A stretch of DNA of 57,215 nucleotides from Paramacrobiotus metropolitanus (lineage: Eukaryota > Tardigrada > Eutardigrada > Parachela > Macrobiotidae): contig NW_026570535.1 in assembly GCF_019649055.1 (NCBI RefSeq), forward strand, positions 1-57,215, given 5' to 3'. The notes beneath the pieces were generated by a model. It was not told the origin of the DNA. It did no database searches and saw nothing but the letters and a program-made list of their open reading frames with translations. Made by a program: the position numbers and the translations under genes. Of the stretch, positions 2,746 through 46,868 are shown piece by piece (within the stretch, counting starts at the first letter, position 1; each line of letters opens with the position of its first letter).

Positions 2746-4059
2746 CTACGTGGCTAATTTATTTACATGGCATAAGAATGCGTTGAAATCATTCAAAGAA
2801 CTTCCGCCTGTTGTCCACACTTTCCCGATAATTTCTTTCCATTGAGCACACTTGTCCGCAAACGGCGATACACCATGCGTTGAATCCCAACCAGCAGCTT
2901 TATTAATCCACTCTTGGATCTCGTTCGCCGGTACCACGCGGGCGTCCGGTCCGAGTTTGGTCTCAGGCACCGTCACGCCCACGCCGATGCTGGCCTGCCA
3001 CGCGGCATTGGCATGCTGATCAGCGAATCCCGGCCACGACACCATGGGGACACCGCAGGTCAATCCTTCCACCGCGCTGTTCCATCCAGCGTGCGTGATA
3101 AACACCGCGACAGACGGATGCTGCAAAATCAGTTTCTGCGGCACCCACGGCAGAATCAAGTGGCCGCCGCCATCCGGCTGCCGGTCCGCTGGTAAATACT
3201 GATGCAGCGGCTCGGCCAGTGACCAAATATACGGCCGCTGCAGTGCGGTCAGTGCGTGGTGGATTTCGGCTATCTGAGCGGGCGCGGCTCGGACCACGGT
3301 CCCGAATGCAAAATAAATAACCGACCGCTGTGGATGATCATCCAAAAACGTCTGCACTTTTTGCTCCGCTGGAGTGAATTCCTTCTGGACCGTCTCTAGG
3401 GGAAAGAGTGGTCCCACATAAAATGTTGGGAGATTGTCCTCGCGGGGTGGAACACTTTCCCGGAAATTATTTACGATGCGTCCAAAGAGAAACGGTTCCG
3501 CGCGCTGTTTCAGCGCCAGCCATTTGCCGATGGCTGACTTTTCGTCTGGTCGCTCTGTGTGGGTCTTCTGTGAGCGATTGCGAATTTCCGAAGACGGAAC
3601 GAATTCGAAGCACGGCACGCCGCGCTGGTGACCGGCCTCCGGCACGAAGCCGACCAGAAAATGGTCAAATATCACCGCATCCACGGCTGGCATTTTCGTC
3701 GCGCCGATTCTGGTCAGTTCTGCATTCTGAAGCGCCTCCCCATTGCGGACAGGCATTTCTCGTAACAGTGTTTCCACTGCCGGGCGGATGAGTTCCATAG
3801 CAATCAGGATTCTTTCCAGTCCCGGTGTGTTGGACACTTTTGCCACATCATCCGGCAGTCCATCGTCAATCGGCAGTAAATGAAAATGCGGATTACTCTG
3901 GTATTTCAGGATATTGCGATCTGTCAGTTTGGGGACAAAGGATTTCGAGATTGTCACGGTGACATCGTGGTGTTCGGTAATGCGGTGGGCAAATTCGAGT
4001 AGCGGGATCAGGTGACCCATGGCCGGTGCATTAATAACGAGAAAATTTTTGCGATCCAT
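2746..4059 (-). CDS. UGT-A: plant/bacterial-type GT1 UDP-glycosyltransferase
   Basis: Intronless 437-residue GT1 enzyme, expected to move a sugar from a UDP-sugar onto a small lipophilic acceptor in the cytosol. The ATG at 4059 is chosen because it begins MDRKNFLVINAPAMGH, matching the start of its closest relative UGT-C; the frame stays open further upstream but without an ATG. His16 (AMGH) and the Asp in VDAVIFD form the presumed catalytic dyad. The PSPG box reads LPWVPQKLILQHPSVAVFI then THAGWNS, and ends FADQ; the usual Cys of HCGWNS is replaced by Ala. There is no signal peptide and no C-terminal membrane helix. A block in the C-terminal half is nearly identical at the DNA level to UGT-C at 20.7-20.9 kb, on the opposite strand. 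An AATAAA lies just inside the end of the reading frame. Confidence 0.95.
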   Translation of the reverse strand: MDRKNFLVINAPAMGHLIPLLEFAHRITEHHDVTVTISKSFVPKLTDRNILKYQSNPHFHLLPIDDGLPDDVAKVSNTPGLERILIAMELIRPAVETLLREMPVRNGEALQNAELTRIGATKMPAVDAVIFDHFLVGFVPEAGHQRGVPCFEFVPSSEIRNRSQKTHTERPDEKSAIGKWLALKQRAEPFLFGRIVNNFRESVPPREDNLPTFYVGPLFPLETVQKEFTPAEQKVQTFLDDHPQRSVIYFAFGTVVRAAPAQIAEIHHALTALQRPYIWSLAEPLHQYLPADRQPDGGGHLILPWVPQKLILQHPSVAVFITHAGWNSAVEGLTCGVPMVSWPGFADQHANAAWQASIGVGVTVPETKLGPDARVVPANEIQEWINKAAGWDSTHGVSPFADKCAQWKEIIGKVWTTGGSSLNDFNAFLCHVNKLAT

Positions 4060-5039
4060 CTTACAGTTAGGGTGTTTCAGCGTTGGATCGCATGCCACTT
4101 GCAAGAGGCATCGGCAATAATCGAAATCAACTATTAAACGGTTTAATTTAGCGCAACGTTTCGACTATAAGCGGCGGTAGAGTAGTACTTAATTATAATC
4201 GGCCACAGATGTGCCGGACCAGCTAATACAGATAAGATAGCATTGATGCTGATAGATGACTGCACTTGATTTAAGGCAATAAAATTAATGCGCTTTCTGT
4301 AACCTTTTCCAAAGTATCTTGGACGTCGTTAAAAGTGCGTACGTACTTAAATAATTTAGGTTATCACCGTATACACCGGCTCGAAAACGACTGGGGATTT
4401 GCGCATGACTTCACATTTTCCAGCTACAGTGTACCAGCAGTACAGACACAATAATATTTTGCAACTGCATAGCAGCATAGTGCATACGAATTCTACGGCA
4501 TATTGTATTGATTTTAGTACGAATATATCAGGTGCTGGCAGTACAGGATATTTGTGTATAGTGGAGGCATATCCGGTTAGAACTTAAAATCGTTTGCCTG
4601 TTCAAATATTCATTAATTTTCCACAGAAGCGTTCTGCAGGATTGATGCAGTATCATCATCATGCATACGCCGTACATACTACGTAAACATCGATGCAGGC
4701 TATTAGCAGGCATGCATCACATGCATTTTTTACCGTTTAGTGCGTTTATGCATCTGGTCTTTGTAAACAGTATCATTCCAAAAAACAAAACCAGAGCACT
4801 TGGTAGAGCAGTAGCAGTAAATGGGCAGAATTCAACGACACAAAAACAATCTGACGCAATGTGCAATACTCTTCAGTTTCCAGTCTTAAATGAAAATAGA
4901 ATGTGAAGTGAGACGGCATACGGTATTTGTGTACAAAGATTTCACCAGCAGAACGTATGAATAAACATGCATTTCCAGTCGAATAAACGGTCAGTGATCT
5001 TTCCATAATCCACCAGGATACAAGAACCCATTTTTGTAA
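4060..5039. other. gene-free stretch (5' flank of UGT-A)
   Basis: Holds the upstream region of UGT-A and the 3' flank of the DNAJC8-like gene. I see no exon or repeat worth calling. Confidence 0.5.
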
Positions 5040-9085: not shown

Positions 9086-10556
9086 TTATTTTGACGGTTG
9101 ACTGTCAATATGATACGTCCCGATATCAACAATCAGCTCCTGTAGCGCGACATACGAACTCCCGCCCTTCCGCACCGCGATCTCCGTCATCTTGCGCGCC
9201 ATCTTGGCATTGCGCCGGAACGGCTCAATCATCATGGCGCGCCCCGTAGCTCCGCCCACCTTCAGAATCACCTGCACGATCTCTTCCGCCGTCACCAGCC
9301 GCGTAAAAAACAGATCCGTATCGGGGATCTTGAGCGCCATGCCCTCTTTGACCAACAGCTCCGCATCCCAATGTTGATCCCCAAACAACGGCCACGCCAC
9401 TACCGGCACCCCGCCCACGATGGCTTCCATCGTGCTGTTCCAGCCGCAATGCGAAATAAATAAGCGGGTGGCGGGGTGTTTCAAAACCATCTTCTGCGGG
9501 ACCCACGGCACGATAATATACTTGAGATCGCATTCAAACTGGTTCTCCATATTGGCTAGGAGTTCCTCCGGGAGGTACTCCTGTTCCGCGGTCTTCAGCG
9601 ACCAGATGAACGGCCGCTGCAGGGTCATCAGGGCTTTGGCGATCTCCCGGATTTGGTCCTGCGACGGAATGGCCATGGAGCCAAAGGACACGTATGTCAC
9701 CGTATTGTCGGTGCGGTTGTTAAGCCACTGCCGGATCTGGCTGAGGGTGACCTTATTGCTTAACGGCTGTTTGGCGTTCTTCCCGGTGTCGGCTTCCGGG
9801 AACAGGGGTGCCACGAAGCGGACCGGTTTGCCTAGGACAAACGGGTGCTTTTCGATGGTCTTGGTGGTGTTGGGCTCGAATTCGGTGACGGAGTTGATCA
9901 AGACCGACTGCGCCACGGAAATTGCGTTAAGGTACGCTAAAGTGTTTTCCTTGAAGATGGCTTGGACACCTTCGGCCGAGCCGAAATCATGACGCTTGCA
10001 GAACTCTTCATCACTCAGACACGGTGTACTTTCTTCCAACCTCCAGGAGTTTCAACAAAATAATTCCCGGACTAGGATTGAAGATGTGGAAGGGCACGCC
10101 GCGGTCAAAACACGCCACGGCATACGCGCCCATCACCAGATCACTGATCACCGTATCCACCGGCCATTCCATGGTCCCCGTAAACAATTGGGATTGGTAG
10201 TCGCATTTCTGATTGTCCTTCGACCCCACTGGCATAGTTCGGTAGATCTGTCGCATCACGGTGCCGGCACGCTTCAGATTGCTCATAAACCGAGCCGGCG
10301 TCAAATTCTTATCGTCCTCATCGGTTAAACCGTCCATTAAACCCAGTAATTTCACCGAGGAATCGGAATCATCCTGGTGCAGCATTATCTCCTTTCGGCG
10401 AATGGAGGCGATTTTACAGTCGGACACGAGAAACGTGACATGATGGGATTCCACCAGCTTCTTACCCAGCTCCAATAAGGGTGTGACGTGCCCGAATGCC
10501 GGGTACGGGACCAACAGGACGTGCTTTTTCTTAAAGGTCATTGTTGTTACCGTCAT
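9086..10556 (-). pseudogene. UGT-B: GT1 glycosyltransferase interrupted by a one-base frameshift
   Basis: The N-terminal half is open from the ATG at 10556 (His23 in FGH, Asp in VDTVISD) and ends in a stop near 10011. The C-terminal half is open in another frame from about 10039 to 9086 and carries the PSPG box (PWVPQKMVLKHPATRLFI, SHCGWNS, ending GDQH). The frames overlap at 10011-10039. Alignment by eye to the sister UGTs puts the switch right after KLLEV: dropping one G from GTTGG would join it to EESTPCLSDEEFCK, the usual '.TPTVPDEEFF' region. No intron-sized gap exists there. Either this is a recently disabled gene or a sequencing error in an intact one of about 489 residues. Everything else in the gene looks well preserved, so I lean only weakly to pseudogene. 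Confidence 0.75.
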
Positions 10557-13072
10557 TGTGGCTGCTTCGGATTAAGACTCATTAACAAAAAACTCGCAGC
10601 TACCGCTTCGTCAACATATTGATTTTGTGACTATTTTGTGGTTGGTTTGTATGGGGTGTTTATTTTTCTTATATTTCCGACGGATTTTTCGCTTTTTGCC
10701 CTGTAATCAGCACATGTCGCCTGCGGGTTGCAGGCGGGCCAATCAAGACAGAAATTGTCTTTTGGACAGTGTAAGAGCTTGTCTCATCGGTACTGAACGC
10801 TATGAGTCAGCCGTGGAAGTTTTTCTTGTAAAATGTTTTTGTTAAAACAAACGACCCTGGGCGAAATGTTATAAGCGTGCGTCTGTATGACCGATGACAA
10901 AGCTGGTGCTTTCTCGGACTTCAAGGTTTTGCTTTCACAAACTATCTTGGCAATTCATTGATAAATTTTTCTGTTCCATGAAAAAAATTATTTGCTTATG
11001 CGTTTACTATAATTATAAGAGTTTGATTGGTAAAACTAGGTAGGTGACATTAACATGACAGCCAAAGTGACCTTTACATCATTCGGTATCATATTAACTT
11101 GTTGTCTACATGCACAACGCAAATTCCAAGCCATATTATTTTTACAATAAATGTAGAAACTTTATTGACATTTTTTAACTTCAAAACGGAAAAGTCACAG
11201 AAGAAGATGGAAATAATCTCACTTTATTGTTAGCACTACGCCCAGCTGGGGCCTGAGGTTTTGTACAGATACTATCGTATTCATATTGCTGCGCCTGACT
11301 TAAATGTCTTAACAATATTGCAAACATTTTATACGAATTGATAAGCTACGTCATTCGCGCGTATGATTTGCTTTGCCGTACTTAATTCCAGATATTGTTG
11401 CTGCACACGCTTACACTTTATAGAACGTTTTCTGTCACAGCGTTTGTACAGCTTGATTGCGACTAAGGAGAGTTATAGAAATTAATTTATGACGGAACTC
11501 ATTTCATTTCTTAAGTTCTGGGTGCGTACAATAGTCATAGTACTCGAAAAACTAAGTTTTTTGACTATGACGCTTTCATATTAGCAAACGTCACAGCCGC
11601 CGTAAAAAAAATTACAATAAGAACGCCTTTTATACTATACGCTGTCACTACATAATATGTACACCTAATATTTATAGTAATCATTTTACAATGTGTCACT
11701 GGCACATAACGTGTACAGATATACAATACCTGTGTTAGAGCATAGGCTGTATAGCATGTAATGGTAATTTACTCAACAAGTAACAATGATAATAAAGCTG
11801 TGGTTTTCTTGACGTCACAAGCCAAAAAACGTTCCTTTCGCATCCTAGACACTAAATGTGTAACCTACTTCAGCATTTTCTTAATGACAATATGCAGCTT
11901 GCAGATTGTATACTTCTATCTATAGAAGTACAGTAGTTGAAGTAAGTACGCTAACCTACTTGTAGCTGAGTAATAAAAATGTCGTATTACTCACGCCCAA
12001 AATTACCTATTATTTCACCGACACGAGTATATATGCAATAATCACAAAAATTTATTAGTCTATTACTTTCGCGGCAACGGCGGCTTTTTTTCATTGCCAC
12101 CATTAGGATCGTGTCCAAGCTGTCAAATTATACGCCTTGAGCGGCATTGACTTTCAGTGCGAGTGATTGTTTTTGACTGCAATAAGTAGCTGATGTAACT
12201 TACTTAGCCGCACTGACAGGGGCACAATTAAATTATACTTACACAATTAAAATAAAAGTAGCTAATTGTGGCACTGAAACCGGGCATGAAATTCTGTTAA
12301 ACAAGTCAAAAAAAGTGTTTTAAACTGCTGACATTATGAATGAGAGTACAGATAATTACATCCAGGCATAAATGTAAATTCCATTTGTTAAAAATTTCAT
12401 TATTTACCCCGGCCGACACTTGACTGCAGAAGATTGTGCTGATTCAGCCCCTTCGTCCGGGTCTCGTGGACTTGTTGTTTAACTGTAAAATCGATTAATT
12501 GCCGCTAAAACGCTTATGTACGCTACCTAGTTCGTGCTTACCAGGTAAAACAATTTTGATGATGCTCGTGCTACGTGAGTAACCGCGTCGATAAAGCACA
12601 ATGCCTGGAACGTGAAGCCTTTTACGCGTGTGTTGTGTTATAATGCAAACACACGCAAGAAGGATTTTACCGGGTTCGAAGTCCAGGGCAGTTGCGGTCG
12701 ATCGTCAAGTGTGTGTAGGATAGTACAATAATTATGTTTTTATGTTATGACTGGGCCATACAATGCAATACGGTTAATCAACGCGTTTAACGGTATTCGT
12801 CGTATCGTACCGATATCAAATACTGTATCCGGTAACAAACCGGACAGGAAGCCGACTCATTTTGTACCTTATGCAACTGCACAGGTACCGATAAATAAAT
12901 GGTCTTAATATTACACGGTTTAACGGGAATCGACAGTTGTTGTCACTTTGCATGTTTACAGCGCATTTATTTAACTGGTCGTAATTGATGTCTAATATTA
13001 ATATTGGCAAAAGCATCGGCTATTTTTGGCTTTAAATAATTATTGCTGTACATGTTGTAGTTGTCTGTGAAA
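10557..13072. other. 2.5 kb gene-free stretch
   Basis: AT-rich, many short direct and inverted stretches but no organised repeat, exon or RNA gene that I can support. The 3' end is the promoter side of the GH17 gene. Confidence 0.4.
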
Positions 13073-14620
13073 ATGCGGCCGAAACTTATGTGGTTGGCTT
13101 TGGCATGTGTCCTAGCGGTCAAATACGGTAAGCAGCGAACTAATATGTTTTTTCTGTGAAACTGCGATTCTCTCGGACATGCATATATAAGCACACAGAT
13201 TTTGAGGATTTCGTGTTTTGTAGTTGATGCGGCTGGTTGTCAAAAGCAGTCGAACAAAGATATCCATGGCGGACAGGCCATCCGGGATGTTAGTGGGCGA
13301 CGGGAATCGGATTGTTGTCAGTTGTGTCGCGAGACATCGGGTTGTAAAGCTTATGCATGGAACAGTTATCAGGGTGGAACCTGCTGGTTGAAATCCGCTA
13401 GCGGGCCGATTGTCGATGCTGCCGGCACTTCCATCGGGATCCTTGATGGATCAGGAGGAAATCCCGGAGGAAGCGGTATGTAAAAAATAAAAATTTAGAA
13501 TTTAGGGGATGGGGTTGAAGTATATTTGAGTGCGTAATGATGGACAGCGATATGTCAATCATTTTGGGTCGTTTCTGTGATAATATAAAGGATCGCTTCG
13601 TGGGCATTACGTACGGTAACTGCGCGCAAGGAAGCGTATGTACACGTCCGCGCGCAGTGTGGCTACGCCTTGATACTCGTATTAAACTGCTGAAGACGGA
13701 ATCAAGCCAAGGGAAAACCGTAAACTGATCATTCTTTAGCCTCGAGTATACCACATTTAAGGTAAAAAATGTTGCCAACAGGTGTGGGACAATTGGGCAT
13801 CTGCTACAGTCCCTTCCACCACCCCAACTACGGCAGCGCCGCCACCATCCGCAGCGTCCTAACCGAGGACATCAAAAAGATCAAATCCCTGGGCTTCAAC
13901 TCCATCCGCACGTACTATGCCGAATACTTCGGCCAGTCCATTGCCGACATCCTCAACGAACAGGGCGGGGTCACCGCGGCACTGGGTATCTACATGTACC
14001 CCGACCACGCCGACTGGATCGACGCCCAGATCAACACCGCCGCAGCGGCCGCCAAGCGCTACCCCGGACTGATCAAAGCCATCTACGTCGGCAATGAGAA
14101 CATCCCTCCGGTGGGCGGTTTCTCGGTCGACAGCCTGATTGGCTACATTAACAAGATGAAGCAGAAGCTCAGTCAACAGGGCGTGTCGGTGCCGGTTGGG
14201 ACGGTGCAGCGCTACACGGAGTGGGTATCGGGACGGGAGGATGTAAAGCGGCTGGTTAATGCCTGTGATGTGATCGGGGCGAATTTGTATCCGTTCTTCA
14301 ATGCCGGCACGAATCCAGCGGATCCGGTCCCAGTGTTTGACAGCCAGTTGCAGAGTGTCAAGAATAAATTCCCCGGGAAGCGCATCGAGATTACGGAGAC
14401 GGGATGGCCGTCGGGCGGGAGTACGTGCAATGGGTCCAGTCAGCCGCGCAGTGTCGATCAGATTAGGAGCTATTTCCAGAAGATGCGGGACTGGAGCAGG
14501 AGTCACTCGGAGAAGGTGTACTATTTCCAGGATTTCAATAAGGTCACCAATCCGGGTAACGACTGTGAGAACTATTTTGGAATAATGGACGCTTATGGAA
14601 ATAAAAAGTTTGACATTTGA
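13073..14620 (+). CDS. secreted PAN/Apple-domain + GH17 glucan endo-1,3-beta-glucosidase
   Basis: Three exons join in phase: 13073-13127, 13224-13475 and 13782-14620, giving 381 residues. Exon 1 is a signal peptide (MRPKLMWLALACVLAV). Exon 2 is a PAN/Apple-like module with six or so Cys (GCQKQ...DCCQLCRETSGC...GTCWLKS) followed by a Gly-rich linker (GGNPGGSG). Exon 3 is a full GH17 barrel: it opens GICYSPFHHPNYG, has the acid/base Glu in YVGNENIPP, and the nucleophile Glu in ITETGWPSGG, the GH17 signature. The family cleaves beta-1,3-glucans of fungal, oomycete or algal walls and laminarin. PAN modules bind sugar or protein, so the N-terminal domain may tether the enzyme to substrate. GH17 is a plant, fungal and bacterial family and not a standard animal one. 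The host-style introns show it belongs to this genome. Confidence 0.93.
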
Positions 14621-20002: not shown

Positions 20003-21315
20003 ATGGCGAGGAAGAATTTTCTCATGTTCAACGCACCGGCAATGGGTCATATTATTCCACTATTCGAGCTAGCGCACCGCATCAGCGCTTACCATGACGT
20101 TACTTTTGTGATTTCCAAATCCTTCGTTCCTAAACTGACAGAGCGGAATATCATTAATTGTAAAAACAATCCGCATCTGCGCACGTGATAACACTTGAAG
20201 ATGGGATGCCTGATGAGCTAGAAAAACTTTCGCATGTTTCGGGGTTTGGAAGAATATTGGTAGCCATGGACATAATGAAGCCAAGCGTTGTAACTCTGCT
20301 GAAAAGTATGCCCTTATCCCACGTGGCATCGTCGGAACCGGTGGGTGAAGAACTGCCGAAACTTGGAATTAGTGAACTGCTCCCAGTGGATGCTGTTATT
20401 TTCGACCAGTTCTTAACCGGTTTCGTGCCGGAACATAGTCACAAGCGCGGCGTGCCATGCTTTGAGTTTATTCCCTCTTCCAACATTCGTAATCGCGCGG
20501 ACAGACTACACACTCGTCCACCACAAGAACAAGCGGACATTGGCGTCTGGTTGCAGCAGAAACAGCATTCCGAGCAATTCCTCGCCGGGCGCATTGTCAA
20601 CAATTTTCGAGAAAGCGTTCCACCACGACAGGAAACCCTTCCAACGTTTTACGTGGGGCCACTTTTCCCATTAGAAACTGCACAGAAAGCTGTAACTCCC
20701 TTGGAGCAGACGGTGAAAACATTTTTGGATAGTCATCCACAGCGGTCGGTTATTTATTTTGCATTCGGGACCGTGGTCCGAGCCGCGCCCGCTCAGATAG
20801 CCGAAATCCACCACGCGCTGACCGCATTGCAGCGGCCGTATATCTGGTCACTGGCCGAGCCGCTGCATCAGTATTTACCAGCGGACAGGCAGCCGGATGA
20901 CGGTGGCCACTTAATTTTGCCGTGGGTGCCGCAGAAACTGATTCTGCAGCATCCGTCTGTCGCTGTCTTTGTCACTCACGCTGGATGGAACAGCACAGTG
21001 GAGGGTCTAATGGGCGGTGTCCCCATGGTCGCGTGGCCGGGATTTGCCGATCAGCATGACAATGCAGCGTGGGTGGAGAGTATCGGTGTGGGCGTGACGG
21101 TGCCCAATACAAAACTCGGACCGGACGCTCGTGTTGTGCCGTCGAAGGAGATTGAGGCGTGGATCAGCAAAGCTGCCGGCTGGGACGCGGTTGATGGTGT
21201 TTCGCCGTTTGCGCGGAAATGTACTGAGTGGAAAGAAATTAGTGGGAAAGCCTGGATGGACGGCGGCAACTCGACAACCGATTTTCAGCTGTTCCTTGAA
21301 CTTTTTGCTGGCTGA
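20003..21315 (+). pseudogene. UGT-C: GT1 glycosyltransferase with an early frameshift
   Basis: The ATG at 20003 opens MARKNFLMFNAPAMGH (His16), a close match to UGT-A, but this frame stops at 20188 after NNPHLRT. The rest of the protein (LEDGMPDELEKL onward to the stop at 21315) is in the frame one base back. UGT-A spans 1314 bases from ATG to stop and this locus spans 1313, which fits a one-base loss near 20180. The remaining ~370 codons are intact, with VDAVIFD, PWVPQKLILQHPSVAVFV and THAGWNS (Ala for Cys as in UGT-A). No start that would give a working N-terminal domain exists in the second frame. It is either a young pseudogene or an assembly error in a 437-residue enzyme. Confidence 0.78.
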
Positions 21316-22089: not shown

Positions 22090-24194
22090 TTACCTGTAAT
22101 ACGCTAGTGCTTTTGGTGAAGGATGTGTGTCCAGTTGACTTTGTAGCGCCCGAATATCTTCCATCGACCGACAATTTGTCTTTAGTAATTCGCGCACAGA
22201 GTGTGTCAGTTCTTTTTCGTGCGTGTTAATGACGCATTTGTCAAAGGTCACCGGGGTACGCGAGAACTGGAACGAGTCATAATAACGCTTGTTGGAAACT
22301 TCCCAGTTGGAACTGCCCGGTTCGATGCCTATAGACATCCATCCACCAACATCCACATTCTCCAAAACCAGTCGTTCACATACATCTCTCCAGTCCGATT
22401 GAAGCTGCAGCGATAGTGAGTTAGAGAACTCGAAGACATTCGCTGCCGATGCATACCAATGCGAAATGATAATTGTGCGTAGTTTAATGTGTTTTGCTTT
22501 CAATAAGCCAATAATCATCGCTATGGGCTCAGTGGAACGAGTGTAATATCGGTACATGTAGTTCCAACGGCAGGAATCGCCCGATAATACGATTGTTCCA
22601 GTGGCAGGACTGGTGTTTCTATCGACGATCAGGGCTAGTTCGTCGTTCTCGTATTTCTGAAGGCTGAATTCCATCCGGGAACATGTGGGAGGGGTTGTTA
22701 AAATAGTATGCCAGGATTTACACACTGTGCGGCAGCGAAGTTGTTCCCGGAATTCCAAAAAGGAAAATATTCGGCGTAGCACTTCTACTGGTACAACGGT
22801 GTTGATAAATGATCGGCAGTCGTATAGTGCTGCGGACTTGGGAGCCTAAACGGAAAAATCATGCTAGTGAAATTTTTAATTATTGAATATTCTATATATT
22901 AATTTTAACTTGCTCTCTGATTACAATACCTGAAGAAACTTGGAAGACCAACGCTGGTTGCTGCTACAGCATCGAGCCGGAGGATTTTTCTTGCTACGCA
23001 AATCTTTATATGTTATTCGTTTAGTCATAATGCGGAACATTTTCACCTAAAAACAAGTTAATTAGCTTATTAGATGTCGAAGACTTGGAGTACGTACTCG
23101 AATTCTGTTCACCGCTTATTTGTGGAAATGTTGCTCATTTCGCTAATAATTGAATTAGCGAACGAGGGGCACAAAACTAAACTCATTGTTCTTCGCAGGA
23201 TTCTATTTTAAGTAATAAGTGCCAAAAAAGGCAAAATAACCAAAAAGATATTTAAAAAAATGTTAAAAAAGGCTGCAGTGGCTAAATATTTTGTTGCACT
23301 GGATCTGTAGAATCTATAAACAAAAACGCATAATACCGCGGGAATCCACCAAATCCATAGAACCATTTAAATTAAAAAAATATTGCTAGAAGGCGTATCA
23401 AAAGCCGCACAAAACGACAAACGACCAACTGAAAAGCACAACTCTTAGTCAGTTGGTCGTTTGTCATAACTTTGTATTTTTTCGAAGCTACGGGTTAGCT
23501 GTTTTCAAACGATTGCTTTTAATTAATTAGGAATTTATTTAACTCGGACAGGAAGCTTTCGGTCTTAACTCTTGATAAAGTGTTTGCTCAAATTTAAATG
23601 ATGTACCAGTTGCCAAAAGGTCCATCCTGAATCAGTGTAGAAGCTAGAAATATGGATCAGTTTTCCTCTCTCAACCTTCACCAGTATCCTCCTTTTATCT
23701 TCGTGTTCGCGATTCCACCACCGAAAATCTTGCTCACTCGGTATCTCGACAAGAAGTTGAATTATCCAACCCAGTGTCAAATGGTGCTTACGGTATTGCT
23801 CCTGCTGCAACGGATGACGTTGGCCTGCCGGCATAATACACCCATGTTTTAAGCTGACCACTTCCCTAACAATTTTTCCATCCCATTTACTCTCCACTAC
23901 GACGAACGTATCGAAGGATCCCATGATCTTAATGGCCGGATACCAGCGCCATGCTTCATTACTTGAGTGCCGCCGTAAAATCTGCACATCATCTCCAGGT
24001 GGAGCAAGCTGGGGATCAATCTGACCGAAACACCGGTCGAATGGGATGAGTTCAGCGTGGTGGCCGGGACAGTCGAAATCAACGAAAAAACCATGGCAGA
24101 CGTATAAATCAATGATCAGACCGTGACGAAATGAACCGTCATCATCCTTTATGTCTACGGCGCCGTAACGCCAGACCGGGCTGCTTTTGAACAT
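22090..24194 (-). CDS. F-box protein with an N-terminal tardigrade-type domain (3 exons)
   Basis: Exons 23607-24194, 22930-23046 and 22090-22845 join in phase 0 at both junctions for a 486-residue protein. Exon 1 (~196 aa) starts MFKSSPVWRYGAVDIKDDDG and carries GFFVDFDCPGHHAELIPFD and later RRHSSNEAWRWYPAIKI; I recall domains of this kind from a large tardigrade F-box family, which is memory and not a search. Exon 3 has a clear F-box at about residues 253-290 (VVPVEVLRRIFSFLEFREQ, then CRTVCKSWHTIL), which would bind Skp1 in an SCF ubiquitin ligase. The C-terminal ~190 residues should hold substrate recognition; no LRR or WD pattern is obvious. The ATG at 24194 is the only good start. Exon 1 would otherwise stop at 23565, which supports the donor at 23606. 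Confidence 0.8.
23416..23465. repeat. 17-bp perfect inverted repeat in the first intron of the F-box gene
   Basis: GACAAACGACCAACTGA (23416-23432) is followed after 16 bases by its exact reverse complement (23449-23465). Confidence 0.8.
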
Positions 24195-25927: not shown

Positions 25928-27753
25928 TCAGCTGAATGTGCTACCATTGCACGAATGTGTGCAGATGGCACAATAAGAGTTTGGGAAAACGTGGTTCAGT
26001 GGTGGTACGGCGGTCAGATTACAGCCCGATGCCTTGTCACTGTCGGCTAATTCCGAAAACAGCAGTACATAACTGCAAGTGGCACCGACAGCCTAAATGA
26101 CAGAAAATGATGCTGCTAAACCTGGCCGTTGCGCGAGGGTGAATCTAAAGGTTGTGACCTTTTTTGGTTTCACTACTGTACTATCTAAAACTGTGGTTGT
26201 AAACACGATTACGCCATCGTTTATGCAAACAGCTCAAATAGCGTATCACGTACCACGAACACCGCTTCGCGGTTAACCGGCAAACCGGCCATCGATAAGC
26301 CGGCTGGAAACTGCTTCTGGTCGGCTACGTACTCCTTGAATTCCTTATCACCTTTACGCGACAGCCTGGTAATGCCGGATGCCTGCACATAAAACACTTG
26401 TTACAATTTTGCTTTGGTCGACACTCGACAGCTTTCATATCATGGTGGTTGTTAAATTTTTGAATCTTACTCAGCTAACACGACACGCGACTGAAATGCA
26501 ATTCAAACTTACAAAAGGGAAAACTGTAGTGAATTTCGGGGTTGAGCAATAATTCAACGTTAACATTTTGTCGAAGTTGAAGCATTTCATGGAGACAGCG
26601 AAGATATTGCTCACACATAACTAGTACAACATCCTGCTCATACATAACTATTAACTGCTGAGGTAGGATTCTCTGCGGGCAAGTTAACGCAACTGTTTGC
26701 ATCGCTGCCTTGCTTGTCCGATGAAATAGCTTTTTACCCTAAATCGCCGATCAATTCCGTAATTTGGCTTACACTTACTTGTTCAGTTAGATAGACGACA
26801 GCCGTAGCATACATAATCAAAATGTAAGTGTACTCTGCCAGAGTGGCAACATTCCCAAGATTCACGGTATTCGTAGTTTTGTACTGCGTAGCGATTTCGT
26901 ATATGCAGAGTATAATGCTGATCAACGACTGAACGTACAAGATTGCATTAACTCCCGAAACTGCCGAATCAAAGCTATTGGTCAGATGGACTAGGCGCTG
27001 ATGTTCCTCTGTGAGCACTGAAATCGCTTTAAAATTGTTTGGCTTCGACAGTTCATTGGATAGCCGTTCTGTGACCTTTCGGAATTGTTTTCCCACAGCG
27101 AAAGCAAATGAAGCGATGAAACTTTAAAGCATCATGGCGCTGATGCAAGCAGCTCGATAACATGCGCAATAAGCAACATACACGTACGTATAGGTCTTAA
27201 AGGTCACATAGCGTGCAACCAGCACATAATCCAGCTGAACTGAACGATAGAAACCGGCAATGTCCGAAGTCACGATGTTTTCAACCGAAAAAACGATAAT
27301 CATGATCAGGCTGAAGCCCATAAAAATGCAAATTTGCCTAATGTCTTTTTGGTTCAATAGAGAGATAACTCCGCCTCCCGAGCTCACACAGCGCATATAG
27401 CGCACCAAGTTGGTGTTGAAATAAAATATGGCGAAATAGTACAACGTTCCAATGGTGTCCACCGTATAAGCGGCCACAGTCAATGTAACAGCCGTGAATC
27501 ACATCTCCTGTGGTATCTGCCAGATTATGTTACAAGCGCAATATACAAATGCTAGGCTTTGAAAAGAATTTGATATTAGTGAGAAGAGTTTGCGGATGTG
27601 ATGTCTCGTGCTCCCGGTTTGATATGGTTGTGGCAGGAAAAAGCCCACCGTTTGCAGACTTATCATCCAGATATCCTCGATCCTTTCCGCAACCTTTTGT
27701 ACCGAGACCATCTTTGGTAAATCATTAGAAACTGACAACTTTGACATTTCCAT
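25928..27753 (-). pseudogene. gustatory-receptor-like 7TM gene with two in-frame stop codons
   Basis: This is a tandem copy of the gene at 29242-31193. The ATG is at 27753 (MEMSKLSVSNDLPKM). Without any frameshift, the first exon meets TGA just after WQIPQEM (about 27500) and TAA just after SAMML (about 27125); the sister gene has sense codons at both places. Past the stops the frame continues to YLTEQ and a perfect GTAAGT donor. An exon at 26487-26738 follows (GKKLFHRTSKAAMQ ... FELHFSR), then one near 26370 (ASGITRLSRKGDKEF ... AGLPVNREAVF) and a last one ending at 25928 (AVGATCSYVLLFSELAD). Splice sites survive, so disablement looks recent. Hydrophobic spans and the C-terminal PAGL..VNRE / SYVLLF pattern resemble insect-type gustatory receptors. 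Confidence 0.8.
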
Positions 27754-29241: not shown

Positions 29242-31193
29242 TCAGCCAGATATGCTGGCGTTGAACGAAGTGCAGATGGCGCAAAAGGAATTTAAAAAAG
29301 CGTGGTTCGGTGGTTGTGTGGCGGTCAGATTGCAGCTCGGTGGCTTATCGCTGTCGGCTAACCCCGAAAACAACAGTACATAGCTGCAAATGGCACCAAC
29401 TGCCTGAAAACAGAAGATGTTAAACAAAACTGACCATGGCGTGGCGCTTTGTTAAACGGTATGACCTTGTTTGTTAATTATCGCACTAATAAAATCAGCT
29501 ATGGCTGCAGTTATGACGTGATAATTACATCACCGTTGATAAAACTAGCCTAATTCTGTGCCACTTACCACGACTGCAGTTTCGCGGTTCACCGGCAAAC
29601 CAGCCATTGTTAGGCCGGCTGGAAGCAGTCTTTGGTCAGCTACATACTCCTTGAATGCCTTATTACCTTTACGCGACAGCCTGGTGATACCGAATGCCTG
29701 CAAATAAACACATGCCACGAGGTTGGCTCGAGCTGGCGTCACCCGGCAATGGGCAATCCATGAATAAAGGTCACAAAAGAGTTGGGTTTTGTCGAAAAAG
29801 TGGACCATTTCTTTCACGAAATATTTGAACGCCGCCTAATAGAATTACTGTACTGCCTAACGTTTAAATTTTTTTTTGTCATGAAGGCTTATAACTTATA
29901 ATTAGTGTCATGCACCGCGCGTGCACTTCGTATCTTTGGTGGCTATTGCCAATAAAGGAATGTAAATTCCATGTTTAGTACCTTTATCTGTCCTGACAAA
30001 AAAGTAATGGTAATTCCAGTCTGACCATACTAAGCACATTGTTCGACGTAATGTTGCCTAATAAGTGGCCTTTAAAGTTGCATGCGCCATTGTGACTGCT
30101 TTCAAATGAGAAAATCTTGATTTTTTATGGATTAAACCGGTAAATAGCTGCTGGAAATATACAGTCTGTAGAAGGCCAGATATGACTAAATTCACTTAAT
30201 TTAGTCTGTACTTTGTAGTTTACTAACTTGTTCGGTTAAATAGACGACAGTGGTAATAAACATGATCAAAATATAAGATAATTCAGCCAGCGTGGCAACA
30301 CTCCAAAAATCCACAGTATTCGTACTTTTGTATTGCGTAGTGATTCCGTAAAAGCAGAGTATAAAACTGATCAGCGACTGAGTATATAACAAGGCGTTGA
30401 CTCCCGACACCGCCGAATCGAAGCAGTTAGTCAAACTGACCAAACGCTGATGTTCTTCAGTAAGCAGCGAAATGGCTTTAAGATTATTTGGCTTAGCTAA
30501 TTCTCTAGACAGCCGCTCTGTGACCTTCTGGAATTGTTTCCCTACAGCGAAAGCAAAGGAAGCGATGAAATTTTCCAGCATCGTAGAGCTGATGTAAGCG
30601 GCTCGATAACATGCGCAATAAACAGCATACACATACGTGTAGGTGTGAAAGGTTACGTGGCTTGCAACCAGTTCATAATCTAACTGAGCCGCACTATGGA
30701 AACCAAAAATGTCGGTAGTAACAATTTTCTCTACCGACAGAATGATCGTCATCATCAGACCAAAGCCCATGAAAAGACAAATTTGCACGATGTCTTTTTT
30801 GGTCAATAACGCAGTAACTCCGCCTCCCGAGCTAATACAGCGCATGCAGCGAACCATATTAGTGTTAAAATAAAATATGGCGGAATAGTACAAAGCTCCG
30901 ATGATGTCTACCATAGAGGTGGCTACAGTCAATGTAACCACCGTCATGGACGTGCCCTGTGGTATTTGCCAGATCATATTATAACTGCCATACCCAATTG
31001 CAAGGATCTGCAAGAAGTTTGACGACAGTGAGAATAGTTGGCGAAAGTGATGTCTCATATTGTCGGGTGGGGGTAGAAAAAACCCCGCCGCCTGCAGACA
31101 TGTTATCCAGATATTCTCGATAATTTCCGCAAAAGTTTGTACCGTGCTCGTCTTTGGTAAATCATTAGAGAAAGTCACCTTTGACACTGTCAT
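29242..31193 (-). CDS. gustatory-receptor-like seven-transmembrane protein
   Basis: Exons 30228-31193, 29743-29835, 29569-29697 and 29242-29403 all join in phase 0 for ~449 residues. Exon 1 (322 aa, MTVSKVTFSNDLPK) has about six hydrophobic spans, e.g. IVQICLFMGFGLMMTIIL and AELSYILIMFITTVVYL. Exon 3 ends in a perfect GTAAGT donor after AGLPVNRETAVV, and the last exon supplies the final span AVGAICSYVLLFSGL. This order and the C-terminal pattern resemble arthropod gustatory receptors (ligand-gated channels of sensory neurons), with the usual 'TY....Q' loosely kept as SY without Q. Compared with the neighbouring copy, exon 2 here lacks about 53 N-terminal codons, so an exon may have been missed or lost. 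Family assignment is moderate. Confidence 0.7.
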
Positions 31194-32736
31194 GCTCGAT
31201 ACTTAATTCAAATCTGAAGTACAGTATTTGCTCTGTAGGCCACGGGCGGAGTGAGTGTTGATCTAAATTATTCTGAAAGTTGAGCTGCAAAAATTATAGA
31301 TGTAGTACTGCTACTGTAGATAATGTAGATCTGCAAACGTTTTCATGGGGAAATCCAGACACCGCTCCAATGCACAAGATTTCGCGCACTGTTTTACCTA
31401 TTACCACATCTCAGCGCTTATTCTAAGCGATACAAGTTGAGTTACACTTCGTGTTGGTTATCAAGAACCGGACTACTTGTGCGTCCCGTTTATGTATGTA
31501 CAAGTACTTAACTAAAAGTATCAGTGGGAGCAACTGGTAAACAGATTGGGCGCTCGGCTTACTATTAGGGAGTTTGTCTTCGATAGAAGTATGCATGTAA
31601 GCAGACAAGGTGCAACGTGCAGTGCGAAAACGATACTGATACCTCGGCACCATTTTACACTACCTTGAACTGACCATGAGGGATGTCGCTGGTGTTATTA
31701 GAGCAAATTATTATTATTGGTCACATGTACTCGTATTGTAAATATCAGGTACGGAAAAAACCACCCATTAAAATCAACCACCCATTAAAATTTAACGAGA
31801 TACAACTTGTGCGCGCATATATTGCAAAGGAAAAGAAACTTATTCGTAAGCTTGCATTTTGTTAAAGGTCAACCCTCCAGAATTTTCTTTAAAATTTCGT
31901 TTTCAGCACAGTACCCGACAGCTTATGTGATTCCCATTTGCATAGGCTGTACATCTGTTCTGAATTTATTCGGAGCCCGGGAGCCGACAGTTTGCCATTC
32001 ACACCGCAGTGCGTCGGCTGGAAATAGTCAGGGAATAGGCGCCTAAATAAGGGAACACTCAGCGATATTCGACGTTCTGACTATGTATTTCACAGTTGAT
32101 TCTTATTTTGATTCATATTGCATGGAAGTATTCATTTACAGGAAGTATAAATAGATTTCTTAATAGTTTCAAGCAAAATAACAGATGAAGCATTTTTTTC
32201 GATTTCATTACTGTACAATACTAAAATCTGCAAATCCGTACTAAATCCGTAATAAATTTTGTACTCTGCAGCCAGTTACTCGTACTTGAATTGCGTATAT
32301 ATGGAAGTATGTCGTACTTACTTGTACACGACAGATATAGCGTGCGTACATTTGATTTGTGTGCGATATATTTACTACATGTACCAGTAAATAATATTTT
32401 ATTTTATTATTATTATATTAACGGTCCGTTTGCTTTAGAACTACTTTCAGTGGCTGAGAAAATAATTATGGACAAGCAATGATCGAAACTTTCAAACGCG
32501 TTTAGTGCAGCCGAATTTTCTTTGTAATTCGTTGTTTTTAAAAAAAATATTTGGGGCAAACTGTTTGTAACTATGATGTTGATCCTGAACTATGAAGCAT
32601 CAAGTACGTAGTGTGTTTCCAAACTTTTACGTTGTAAGATTTCGTGCCACGCATGAAGCAATTAAATCAAACAAGAAGTGTGAATAAAAAACATAGAAAA
32701 CCAAAGGCACTTATTAGCCTTTGCGGGTATTCGAAA
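31194..32736. other. gene-free stretch; includes a third duplication-junction fragment
   Basis: 5' flank of the chemoreceptor gene. Near 31863 the GTTAAAGGTCA junction sequence seen at 25175 and 28449 appears a third time, followed by only weak similarity. No exon seen. Confidence 0.5.
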
Positions 32737-34867
32737 TCATCCAAACAAGTGCTTGCGAAATTTTTCAAAATCTTTCCGAGAACTTCCTTCCTTGTCCCAG
32801 ACTTTCCCAGCAACCTCACTCAGCTGCTTAATACTCTTGTAATATTTCTCATCGCCGTTTTTGTCCCAGTTGCCCACTTTCTGAATAAGCTTCGTAATAT
32901 TCTCCGCCGCGCAAATATCTTCTCCCCGCAATGACGTATTGGGCACCACCACGCCCACTTCCCGTTCTGCAACGAAACCGGCATTCAGAGGTTGATCCCC
33001 ATACAACGGCCATCCAACAAGAGGAACCCCGGCCGTCACTGCCTCCAGCGTCCCATTCCACCCACAATGCGAGACGAAGACTCCGCAAGCCGAATGCTTC
33101 AGCACCGCCGTCTGCGGAATCCACGGCGCAATCAGGAACGGTTGCTTCTCCACGGAGTGGAACTGCTGCGCGATATGACGCTGGAGATCGTCCGGGAGAC
33201 AGCGCTGTTGTTCCGGCTTCAACGACCAGATAAACGGCCGCTGCAGACTGCGCAACGCTACGGCTAACTCACGTAACTGCGCCACGGATGGGAAGACCAT
33301 GGAGCCGAAAGAAACGCATACCACCGAGCGGTCTGACTGCGCGTCTAGCCATTCCATGACCTTTTCCGCTGCCTCGCCACTGGTTTTCTCCTGGGGAATC
33401 AACGGTCCGGTGAAGAACACCGGGAGCTCCTCGAACACCGGGTTGCCGGCGATCATCCCGACGGCCGCCGGTTCCAGCTCGCGGAAGGAGTTGGCGATGA
33501 CGCCGGTGGATAGCTGCAGCATTTCTTTGGTAAAGAGCAGGAAATCCTTCATGGATTGCTGCAGCGGCAAGGGGTTGCCGGGCGGGGCCGGTAGGTAGTA
33601 GGTCTCGTCGGGGGCCACCGGGATTTCTTCGTTAATGGTGAGAAACATTGGGACGGTAAAACCACAGGATGTGGTAAACATATAACAGGGAATCCCACGG
33701 GCCCTGCACAGTTTAGCCGGCAGGCCGACGAAGCTGTCCGTGATGACGGCTTGAACGGGCTCGAAGAAGGGATTCATCAGGGGCTGATCCGCTGATTTGT
33801 GTACCTCGATGACATCGCGAACGTCGGCGGTGGGGATGGTATCGAATAGGTATTTGAGTGCCTGTTCCATACCTGCAAAATGCGTATAAATACAGTAAAA
33901 TTATATCCTAGTGCGTACATAGCGCATTGTAAACATCCAAAGTCGACGCTCTGTTGTTGAGCTTTATGCTGGACATCCCTCACTGATATCCTCAAATCAC
34001 CACAATCACAGGATTCGCAGCAACTTGAGAAAGATGAGTAATATGCGCAATACTTTGTACACTAAACATACAGTGCTTTTCTGGTTTATTTATTTTTGTA
34101 GATTTGGGCATTATTACAAGTACTGGCATTTGCGTGCTAAAAAATGTTACCTAATACCAAATTAAATACCGCAACAGGTAACTTCTGTTGTTTCTGTTTA
34201 CAGCCATGTAAACTCATTACATAATGGAATCAACCACAATAACATTATTTACAGTACCACATGGCTCGTTAACAATAAACACATAGAAAAATACATACGC
34301 TCTTTATCGAACAAAATAAATCAAGCAATTCGACACACGTTCACGCTTAGCGAAGCGGCGAAATAATTTTGCGTATTTTACTGCATTCAGAACCAGCGAG
34401 TAAACTTTTGTATAAAATTAGGTAAAATTAGATCAACTAACAGGTTCATGTTATATATAAATGCGCCCATAATTATTGATACATAAATGCGTTAAAATAA
34501 TCTTATTATACTTAGACTTTATTAGATCATACTGCATTTGAAAAATTACTCTAGACTAGCGTTAAATTTATATATGCAGGGGCTTGAAAGTACCATTTTT
34601 AATCTCCATTTTGTGATTAACTCCGGGATCCACATCAATATCAGCGCGAATTTTGTCATTTAACGGAAACAGCCGAATATTATCCTTCAGGCTGTTTGGG
34701 ATTAAACCACGCTGTCGCGTCTCCTCCACTTTGACCGCCGATACGGCAAAGGTCACCAACAAAGAGGTATCCTCCTCCACCAGCCTCTTGATAAACTCCA
34801 TCTGCGGAATAATGTGCCCGAACGCCGGAAAGGCCACTGACAGGATATGACGTCGAATTTCCGGCAT
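32737..34867 (-). CDS. UGT-D: two-exon GT1 UDP-glycosyltransferase
   Basis: Exon 1 (34594-34867) starts MPEIRRHILSVAFPAFGH with His18. Exon 2 (32737-33872) starts GMEQALKYLFDTIP. A phase-1 intron of 721 bases with GT/AG borders separates them; the joined protein is 469 residues, the longest intact one here. Exon 2 carries VQAVITDS (dyad Asp), VVCVSFGSM, and the PSPG box PWIPQTAVLKHSACGVFV, SHCGWNG, ending YGDQ. The Ser of HCGWNS is Gly in this copy. The ending GDQ corresponds to the plant PSPG position where Gln goes with UDP-glucose use, but donor choice here is inference. No signal peptide or C-terminal anchor. None of the other nine UGT reading frames in the window has an intron at this place. 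Confidence 0.95.
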
Positions 34868-44152: not shown

Positions 44153-44776
44153 TTCCTAATTGGCAGCGGATACGGTTGTTGTCGGGCAGAATGGATTTCG
44201 ACTTTGTTCACACGTCGGACGGTAATCTGCCGGTTTCGGAGATTGCCATCAGGTTCAGCACAAACGCTATTCTTAATATTCTGAATACACTCAATTTAGT
44301 CACATGTATGTTCGTTATCATAATTCATTACTAAAACAAACAAACTCCTCACCTGATTGTACGGCTGGTTCGGCACGAATAGGTAGGCACGAGTAATTTG
44401 GCTTGTTGTAATTACAACAGTAACAAGATACGATATCAACGCATTATTGTCAACAATTGTGTAAAATTCATTAGCGACTTATTATAATTATAACTAAAAT
44501 ATACCACAATTTTCCTTTACGAATTATGCGGCCCGACTAGTTCGTTTATCATCTAGCTGTGCAGAGTATTTGACAGATATTGTCCGTAATTCTGGCTTAT
44601 CGGCTAACCTGTTAATTTATTTAACTTTTTGTACGTACAAGATGAGTATGGTCCAGGACCTATTCACGAGCGAGCGGTTTCCAGCCTGTATAAAACGCGG
44701 GGAAACTTCGGCCTCAGAACCGAGAATTTAGCATTTGAAGATTTTTCTTCATGTATTAGTATACCCGGAGTTGACC
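44153..44776. other. gene-free stretch (5' flank of UGT-E)
   Basis: Spacer; apart from the TATA box listed separately and the coding-like frame up to 44334, nothing is seen. Confidence 0.4.
44689..44695 (+). promoter_or_regulatory. TATA box of UGT-E
   Basis: TATAAAA in a GC-rich context (CCTG before, CGCGGGG after), 82 bases before the UGT-E ATG; transcription would begin around 44720. Confidence 0.65.
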
Positions 44777-46036
44777 ATGCACAAGCGCAAGCACATCCTG
44801 GTGATCAGCTTCCCAGCGCTTGGTCACTACCTCCCACTGCTGGAGTTAGCCAAGCGATTAGTCGCACACCACGAGATCACCGTGACCTATTCCCAGGCCA
44901 ACCTTTCCAATCTGGAGCGGCGCCATATTCTCCCTCCTGCCCCGATCAAACTACTCCCCTTGGCTGACCAACTCACGACAGATTTCGAAGAGGGCGTCAA
45001 CGATGTCAAACAGATCGTCAAGACCATGGATTCAACGGAATTATTCTATCCTGATTTCTGCCGAAATCTCCCGCAAAGCTGCAATCAGCCTATAGACGCG
45101 GTCATTATCGACAGCGTATTCTATGCCACCTTCAGCCCGTTACAAGAAGTAAAGGTCAAAGTGTACAGTTTCAACGCATTCCCCATCAGTATGACCCTTA
45201 AACGCTTGATGATTACGGACAGCACACCCACTGTTGCGGATAATGAATATTTTACGAAGGGTTGGGCGGGTGTTCCGCAATCATTGAAGGTCTTAGCGAT
45301 GAAGGTGAACAAAAGCATGGATCACATGGAGACAATGATTTTTTCCTCGTTTGAAGATCTGGAACCAGGTGCGGTGGAAACGTTAAAGAAATTCAAGCCA
45401 AACCTCGATGTCAAGTTTGTGGGACCTCTTCTGCATTTCAACGAACACGTTCCAGATAATAAGGTCACTGATTTCTTGGACCGGAAATTGGCTCGATCAG
45501 TTGTCTACGTTTCCTTCGGAACTGTTGCCATAATGTCGGCGGAACAGATTGCACAAGTCGCAGAGGCGCTTCTATCTCTTAAGCGGCCTTTTATTTGGTC
45601 GCTTCGACCGGCCCAGTTGGAGCTACTTCCATCAAAGATCACTCATGCAACGGATGATCATCTTATCTTGCCGTGGGTTCCGCAAAAACATATCTTGTCT
45701 CACAAAGCCACGGCCGTGTTCGTCAGTCATTGTGGATGGAACAGTACACTAGAGGCACTGTCGTATGGCATTCCCATTGTTGCCTGGCCGAGTTTTGGTG
45801 ATCAGTTAGTCAACGCAGCGCTGGTGGAGAAACTGGAAACCGGTTTGATGATAAAAAGTCGCAACACTGTTTCCTCTGACGAGATTGTGGGGACCATTGA
45901 AAAGGTCGCGGGGTGGAACGGCAGCGCTGATCGGTATGCACAGAATGCGGAAGAGCTAAAGGTCAAGGCTATGATGGCGGTGGCTCCTGATGGGAAATCT
46001 ACGCAAGATTTATTGCAGATAGTGAAAGACGTTTAA
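44777..46036 (+). CDS. UGT-E: plant/bacterial-type GT1 UDP-glycosyltransferase
   Basis: Intronless, 419 residues; the first member of a six-gene head-to-tail array. The ATG at 44777 (context GACC) gives MHKRKHILVISFPALGH with His17, aligned with the sister genes; the longer frame upstream has no ATG. The dyad Asp is in IDAVIID. The fold's second half starts near VVYVSFGTVAIMS, and the PSPG box reads PWVPQKHILSHKATAVFV, SHCGWNS (His318), ending FGDQ. It is closest to UGT-F and UGT-G (shared YLPLLELAKR, AGWNG and short C-terminus). No signal peptide or membrane anchor, so soluble. It has its own TATA box. Confidence 0.96.
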   Translation: MHKRKHILVISFPALGHYLPLLELAKRLVAHHEITVTYSQANLSNLERRHILPPAPIKLLPLADQLTTDFEEGVNDVKQIVKTMDSTELFYPDFCRNLPQSCNQPIDAVIIDSVFYATFSPLQEVKVKVYSFNAFPISMTLKRLMITDSTPTVADNEYFTKGWAGVPQSLKVLAMKVNKSMDHMETMIFSSFEDLEPGAVETLKKFKPNLDVKFVGPLLHFNEHVPDNKVTDFLDRKLARSVVYVSFGTVAIMSAEQIAQVAEALLSLKRPFIWSLRPAQLELLPSKITHATDDHLILPWVPQKHILSHKATAVFVSHCGWNSTLEALSYGIPIVAWPSFGDQLVNAALVEKLETGLMIKSRNTVSSDEIVGTIEKVAGWNGSADRYAQNAEELKVKAMMAVAPDGKSTQDLLQIVKDV

Positions 46037-46868
46037 GCTGCTTTGTTCGCGGAGTACGCGCTTTTATGTGTCTAATCACCAAGATTTACAGAAAAATTAG
46101 ATTGAATTAGTCAGAAGAATTTTCGGTGCAAAGACTTCATAGGAGTAGCGCTTCTGTTTTGTTTTGTCAGAAAAATCTCCTTCTTCTGCTCAACAAATAT
46201 CTGCCCGAAAGTTTGAAAGTTAACATATATATGTAGTAACAACTTAGTTTTTACTTGCAGATGAGTTGCACCGTATACAAAAACACAAATGCTTCTCATT
46301 CACGAACCGTTAGGTCATTATATGTTGCACATCATCATTTAATATTTTTTTTTCAGTTAAGCACAAAAATGTATTATTATTGTCAAGTAACCGTAAAAGG
46401 CGTCTTCAATCTACAGTATATCATCAAATTCATCAAGCACTTGAAATTCTTGAATAGCGGTATTTTGCTATCTGTACAGCTCATAACCGGAATAACGCTA
46501 CGAGTAGGTACCTCATTATCAGTACGAGTACGTATCACGGTCAGTACTTTACTGTCTTTGATTCCGATGACTCATATGCAATAATTTATAAAATGTAAAC
46601 TATAGTTTTATCGGTCAAGGTCGAAATTTATCTTTTGCCTATTTTTCATGATAAACGACGCTTCCGTTTCGCGCGATAACAACAGCGACTCGCTACGAGT
46701 ACTCCGTAATAACAGTTGATTGTTGATGTACAGTTGCGCACAACAAGACCGTATTACTCTGTATAAATTTGGAGGTGAAGTGACAAAAAATTACATAAAT
46801 TTTTATTTGCATAACTGTAATTTACATAACATAATTATTGCTGGCGAATTAAGAAGGTTAACTGAACG
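46037..46868. other. intergenic spacer UGT-E/UGT-F
   Basis: No exon seen; holds the UGT-F promoter. Confidence 0.5.
46762..46768 (+). promoter_or_regulatory. TATA box of UGT-F
   Basis: TATAAAT 101 bases before the UGT-F ATG, a similar distance to that in UGT-E. Confidence 0.5.

Follow-up and report, generated by a model that had tools for sequence, protein, structure and literature searches.

The genome of the tardigrade Paramacrobiotus metropolitanus carries, on a contig of 57,215 nucleotides (NW_026570535.1, analysed whole and hereafter called the window), a predicted three-exon gene in which a PAN/Apple module precedes a glycoside hydrolase of family 17 (GH17) with both catalytic glutamates in place. 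We read it, with a probability of about 0.6, as a single-copy tardigrade gene for a secreted, retaining GH17 beta-1,3-glucanase with an N-terminal PAN/Apple module, gained horizontally and cutting the walls of algae, fungi or oomycetes. The new element is the presence of PAN before two unrelated families of wall-degrading enzymes, GH17 and GH45, in one animal. Secretion, activity, substrate, binding through PAN and site of use are properties of the protein that we infer.

Gene structure

Joining the three exons located at 13073-14620 of the forward strand yields a single frame of 381 amino acids that is closed by a TGA at 14618-14620 (Table 1). Neither intron can be read through as coding sequence because of the in-frame stops that they contain. 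The preliminary description had proposed a PAN/Apple-GH17 gene of this extent, and the predicted model, with GT-AG introns and phase 1 at both junctions, bears it out. It had also placed the PAN/Apple module on an exon of its own, which agrees with the match of PAN_4 to the symmetric exon 2 (32 bits against a Pfam cut-off of 27, E 1.3e-7). The coincidence of exon borders with domain borders that had been suggested is found for the PAN and GH17 exons but not for the signal peptide, which extends into exon 2: the probable cleavage region, VDA-A, is encoded there, past exon 1 (MRPKLMWLALACVLAVKY), so that the border between signal and PAN is only approximate. The signal peptide was assigned by eye, and the protein, described earlier as secreted, is probably so.

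A Gly/Ser linker spans the junction of exons 2 and 3. Exon 2, symmetric and with a single PAN domain, is of the type used in exon shuffling, which is compatible with such an origin and no proof of it. The GC content at third codon positions (GC3) is 0.75 in the GH17 exon, 0.47 in the PAN exon and 0.48-0.67 in eight further window ORFs. Patterns typical of prokaryotic promoters and terminators did not rise above the level of shuffled sequence, no tRNA genes were found in the window, NCBIfam profiles rendered a single weak and irrelevant match, and for the flank at 11000-13060 no further copy was reported in the same genome.

Table 1. Features of the PAN-GH17 gene and of the window, and positions of protein X elsewhere in the genome
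Feature	Position	Strand	Remarks
Exon 1	13073-13127	+	Begins with ATG; encodes the larger part of the signal peptide (MRPKLMWLALACVLAVKY), with a hydrophobic run; donor GTAAGC, junction in phase 1
Intron 1	13128-13223	+	96 nt, GT-AG, phase 1; one in-frame stop, TGA at 13157
Exon 2	13224-13475	+	Encodes the last part of the signal peptide, the PAN/Apple module (PAN_4) and the first part of the Gly/Ser linker; symmetric, phase 1-1
Intron 2	13476-13781	+	306 nt, GT-AG, phase 1; eight in-frame stops
Exon 3	13782-14620	+	Encodes all of the GH17 catalytic domain, up to the stop codon; family assigned from sequence, profile and predicted fold
Glu208 codon	14096-14098	+	GNE motif; Glu in 44/44 aligned relatives
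Glu308 codon	14396-14398	+	ETGWP motif; Glu in 44/44 aligned relatives
UGT ORF	2746-4164	-	Pfam/protein search
UGT ORF	9086-10571	-	Pfam/protein search
UGT ORF	20009-21315	+	Pfam/protein search
UGT ORF	32737-33900	-	Pfam/protein search
UGT ORF	44732-46036	+	Pfam/protein search
UGT ORF	46866-48140	+	Pfam/protein search
UGT ORF	49113-50405	+	Pfam/protein search
UGT ORF	51404-52849	+	Pfam/protein search
UGT ORF	53867-55267	+	Pfam/protein search
UGT ORF	56368-57213	+	Pfam/protein search
F-box ORF	22090-22845	-	Pfam; similar-looking F-box region in locus L013 by eye
Hydrophobic ORF	26734-27123	-	Weak 7tm_7 chemosensory receptor similarity, 20.4 bits against a cut-off of 26.6
Hydrophobic, membrane-protein-like ORF	27124-27498	-	
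Hydrophobic, membrane-protein-like ORF	30201-31202	-	No Pfam match at 0.1
Protein X	C61:80874-81473 (L127)		About 200 aa; one of two genome matches
Protein X	C164:44846-45433 (L128)		About 200 aa; one of two genome matches

Identity of the catalytic domain

The assignment of the exon 3 protein to GH17 is sound. The Pfam profile PF00332 scored 25 bits on the PAN-GH17 protein against a gathering cut-off of 28.2, and in a control scan of seven relatives five passed with 40-52 bits and two fell below the cut-off, namely a partial stretch annotated as GH17 (26.5 bits) and an unannotated sequence from a MAG (18.1 bits). In a phmmer search of exon 3 against the PDB the five best sequences, two of which are one enzyme and its mutant, were all GH17 (E 6.5e-11 to 6.4e-4). 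The AlphaFold2 model of exon 3 (pLDDT 86.7, pTM 0.89) predicts the beta/alpha barrel fold of the family; the first six rows retrieved with it by Foldseek were all GH17, as were the first twelve of a second structural aligner (Z 24.0-28.1), with other barrel families at Z 22.4 or lower. In the latter comparison microbial GH17 structures (Z 27.3-28.1) rank above plant ones (Z 24.0-24.9), and the modelled tardigrade domain looks microbial, not plant-like.

Both catalytic Glu motifs had been recognised in the preliminary description, and both residues are identical in all 44 relatives aligned, of which 43 come from genome contigs of bacteria and one from a viral contig. We take Glu208 to be the general acid/base and Glu308 the nucleophile, as would be expected from GH17 biochemistry. 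The counterpart of Glu308 is the glutamate that was changed in the active-site mutant of the Rhizomucor enzyme, 4wtr, as judged from the alignment and the title of the entry. On the other hand, a C-terminal Asp-Glu motif found in 44 and 41 of the 44 relatives, respectively, is Asn-Lys in the tardigrade protein, and three conserved Trp are replaced by Tyr, Phe and Phe (residues 69, 171 and 264 of the exon 3 model). Because of these replacements, which set the protein apart from the aligned bacterial set, its specificity or activity may differ.

Rhizomucor miehei 4wtp, Formosa 6fcg and Penicillium G7048 8akp share with the tardigrade domain the barrel and motifs of the GNE and ETGW types, although 4wtp and 8akp have GSE instead of GNE at the first of them. 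Identity to the three in structural alignments is about 21%, and the tardigrade protein differs from all of them in its N-terminal PAN and in being encoded by an intron-bearing gene of an animal genome.

PAN modules in the genome

A genome-wide search with PAN_4 rendered 12 matches at E<=0.1 (24 candidates scored), among which the exon 2 module scores highest. They were counted as ten genes, half of them encoding glycoside hydrolases: PAN precedes GH17 in one and GH45 in four, and the others comprise one gene for a protein here called X, one for a protein with a Cys-rich tail (contig C77) and three weaker cases (C4, C68 and C74), for which no such enzyme was seen by eye in the 3-kb loci. Seven matches were obtained when the PAN of the window served as query, among them weak ones on C92 and C186 (E 0.02-0.3), where no enzyme was seen. 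Aligned with five other PANs of the genome, the exon 2 PAN shows 27-34% identity and has five Cys columns and one Trp column in common with them; because of this low identity and of its own introns it is not a recent copy of the local modules. On C77, the PAN protein with the Cys-rich tail, which is short, looks secreted and is encoded at 57448-57939 (L130 449-940); a PAN-like fragment (E 0.0045) is found about 1.2 kb downstream.

PAN lies ahead of GH45 on the same strand at all four GH45 loci found (six matches). Both share one open frame at C164 only, where the protein scores 254 bits to GH45; the frame is broken at C94, C319 and C61. The broken frames of these three copies (L017, L018 and L126, respectively) could reflect pseudogenes or assembly indels. 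C94 and C319 are 99% identical over 3.1 kb, and judging from this they may be two copies of one locus. A search of plasmids with the GH45 protein found nothing. Like GH17 here, GH45 of tardigrades and rotifers is a wall-degrading family in animals that is presumed to have been transferred, and in this genome it also has a signal-PAN front end; it differs in that its catalytic family is unrelated to GH17 and that at C164 PAN and enzyme share one open frame. In PMC6509783, tardigrade and rotifer GH45 were grouped with Neocallimastigaceae fungi with a weak bootstrap (14), and the word PAN is absent from the main text of that paper. No PAN-GH17 or PAN-GH45 fusion was seen among the open-access papers listed for these combinations.

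As to what these modules might bind, the GH45-linked PAN of C164 had as its best PDB match Toxoplasma MIC4 (E 1.6e-4), followed by plasma kallikrein (E 4.3e-4), and the PAN of the window matched one chain only and weakly, the microneme antigen L2 (E 0.021). The Apple domains of these apicomplexan proteins bind galactose; plasma kallikrein is a protein binder. Since the match of the window PAN is weak and kallikrein comes second for the GH45-linked PAN, glycan binding is something that we infer rather than observe. PAN has been described as a protein- or carbohydrate-interaction module, and cellulose is bound by CBEL, in which oomycetes combine PAN with CBM1 (PMC3532174, PMC1192801). CBEL and Toxoplasma MIC4 link secreted PAN/Apple domains to carbohydrate or surface binding, as proposed for the tardigrade PAN, although in CBEL the partner is CBM1 and not GH17.

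A signal-PAN cassette copied between genes

On C61 a GH45 gene (- strand) and the gene of protein X (+ strand) are divergent, and the signal end, two consecutive PANs and the linker form an inverted duplicate (L126 1383-1942 and 3017-3576) that BLAST aligns with 98.3% identity over 539 nt and 97.1% over 560 nt. Beyond the linker that they share, the two arms part, one continuing as GH45 and the other as X. The same divergent pair is present on C164, where X, 74% identical to that of C61, has a short N-terminus of its own; PAN is absent from the part of this locus that was read, and on this contig the matches listed by the PAN searches are confined to the GH45 side. Searches with protein X itself were negative against both Pfam (at 0.1) and the PDB (at 1).

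From the sequences, a signal-PAN cassette has been copied from one gene to its neighbour in this genome. That it went from GH45 to X is suggested by the PAN-less X of C164, the alternative being that PAN was lost from X there. C61 provides a worked example, on genes other than GH17, of the addition of PAN to a gene inside this genome, and PAN looks like a transplantable front end. A broader idea, which we hold only tentatively and consider on balance improbable, is that PAN became, in the tardigrade lineage, what carbohydrate-binding modules are to the cellulases of fungi, with the cassette copied before the imported GH45 and GH17 and the secreted X; once fitted in front, it would make imported enzymes secreted and surface-bound.

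Origin of the GH17 domain

Exon 3 has a single match in the genome (169.8-Mb assembly of 533 contigs, the window being the whole of C315), which is itself (645 bits), and the gene is therefore single-copy. An alignment scan of bacterial genome contigs with GH17 confirmed at least 553 of at least 590 pattern matches; among the best 80 of these at least 553 loci the best-segment identity was at most 33% (31-33% for the closest), and the top bacterial relatives among the matches listed by phmmer reached 82 bits, the self-score of 645 coming from another program. The same scan of viral contigs confirmed two of 14 pattern matches. A GH17 protein scan gave no confirmed relative in genome contigs (56 pattern matches) or viral contigs (seven), the phage sequences searched contained no GH17 relative, and plasmid sequences contributed nine records with GH17 similarity, at identities of no more than about 30%.

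The GH17 phylogeny called for in the preliminary description was built quickly from 53 rows: 44 of the 82 loci that the alignment scans of genome and viral contigs had supplied, five plasmid rows, three PDB fragments and the GH17 of the window. The 38 loci dropped by eye were mostly partial, had long inserts or a stop, or were near relatives of rows kept, and some were full-length. In this tree the tardigrade protein falls outside the sampled groups, on an end branch of 5.87 (median 0.22). A close bacterial donor was considered and rejected, given the identities above and the lack of placement in the tree; because of the low identity and the long outside branch, no bacterium among the best 80 is a plausible recent donor. 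Fungal, oomycete and plant GH17 proteins entered the comparison through a few PDB entries only. Our impression, which is not counted as evidence, is that oomycete GH17 proteins presumably resemble the tardigrade one closely.

The horizontal acquisition that had been suggested for this gene is likely, although the tree offers no donor clade; the gene has introns and is linked to host genes. The donor was most likely an unsampled, probably eukaryotic, microbe. With regard to GH17 in animals, where the literature searched led to the whitefly, Colinet et al. (PMC11800479) stated in 2025 that, to their knowledge, GH17 was undocumented in animals before the plant-derived enzymes of the whitefly Bemisia tabaci (Bta06115 and Bta06118), which were gained horizontally and of which Bta06115 is an active beta-1,3-glucanase. 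The open-access literature rendered no report of a tardigrade GH17, 'glycosyl hydrolase family 17' or laminarinase; GH17 is not mentioned in the parts of PMC6011409 available, which hence provide no test of its absence in animals. The tardigrade protein is like those of the whitefly in being a GH17 of an animal, probably secreted and transferred, but the latter are plant-type with a signal peptide alone, whereas the former is nearer to microbial structures and has PAN.

Proposed function and alternatives

In the reading that we favour, the signal peptide would direct the protein to the gut lumen or the salivary fluid, PAN would hold the enzyme on polysaccharide or glycoprotein surfaces or wall material, and the barrel, by means of its two glutamates, would cleave beta-1,3-glucan in the walls of algae, fungi or oomycetes. 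The catalytic domain would have been acquired by horizontal transfer, PAN being a module that also fronts a GH45 cellulase in this genome. Use of the enzyme in digesting algal or fungal food is likely; Paramacrobiotus sp. TYO is cultured on an alga and a rotifer (PMC8277472).

Regarding the gene itself, an in-frame ATG at 13769, 13 nt upstream of the acceptor of intron 2, would make possible a signal-less GH17 starting inside that intron, and exon 3 might then be a gene of its own or the three exons be spliced otherwise; this is very unlikely, considering the consensus donors, the phase 1 of both junctions, the common strand and the linker that crosses the junction. Still less probable is an origin of the contig from contaminating microbes or food organisms (Chlorella, the rotifer Lecane). 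The culture was fed with both of the latter (PMC8277472), GH17 has no second copy and the third codon positions of exon 3 are rich in GC, but the contig has introns, an ORF similar to 7tm_7 (below the Pfam cut-off) and an array of some ten UGT ORFs, and contamination is unlikely because this array has relatives on 21 other contigs. All four UGT ORFs scanned match Pfam UDPGT, the others match by protein search, and one of them has 85 matches on 22 contigs (21 besides its own) by hand count. Two other window ORFs scanned alongside had no Pfam match. The HCGWNS/HAGWNS motif of the window UGTs is plant-like. UGT clusters with plant-like signatures of transfer are known in the tardigrade H. dujardini (PMC5531438), and the array of the window is of the same kind. 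By hand count, the genome has seven TPS matches on three contigs and 48 trehalase matches on eight, which fits the three TPS-TPP genes and eight paralogues of trehalase published for Paramacrobiotus sp. TYO (PMC8277472). A more serious possibility, though one we still consider doubtful, is that the fusion of PAN with GH17 predates the transfer, the donor being for example an oomycete or fungus with both, and that the two were imported together, the tardigrade adding introns only. Secreted PAN proteins are numerous in oomycetes, which also have a GH17-like endo-1,3-glucanase (PMC1192801), CBEL has PAN (PMC3532174), and the distance of the exon 2 PAN from its five relatives in the genome speaks against a recent local copy. 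On the other hand, the symmetric phase of the PAN exon and its GC3, so different from that of the GH17 exon, fit separate histories without proving them, the PAN cassette is common to two unrelated neighbouring genes of the same genome, and the available portions of the two oomycete papers (PMC1192801, PMC3532174) do not name a PAN-GH17 protein.

With respect to function, the protein could serve, instead of digestion, to defend the animal against fungi, oomycetes or bacteria present on it, or to lyse their walls. The walls of fungi and oomycetes contain beta-1,3-glucan, and the genome has the PAN protein with a short Cys-rich tail on C77; nevertheless, the other PAN-bearing enzyme belongs to a family of cellulases, GH45, and speaks for feeding on the walls of plants or algae, which leaves a defensive role improbable. 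Slightly less improbable, though still not to be expected, is an enzyme like a beta-1,3-glucanosyltransferase, or one of altered specificity or weak catalysis, in place of a plain endoglucanase. It would account for the top position of the Rhizomucor glucanosyltransferase 4wtp (Z 28.1) in the second structural comparison, which is however tied with the Formosa laminarinase 6fcg (Z 27.9), and for the replacement of the Asp-Glu motif and three Trp that relatives conserve, but both catalytic glutamates and the ETGWP strand are intact, and animals have no glucan wall of their own to remodel.

Implications

GH17 is a type of enzyme almost unknown in animals, and it is represented by a single gene in this tardigrade genome. 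An independent GH17, of other than plant origin, in a second animal phylum would extend the set of digestive enzymes that animals have imported. The larger point is the pattern of PAN modules, which illustrates in a concrete case how a front end for secretion and binding may be added to an imported enzyme, a step that is traceable here from the genome sequence.
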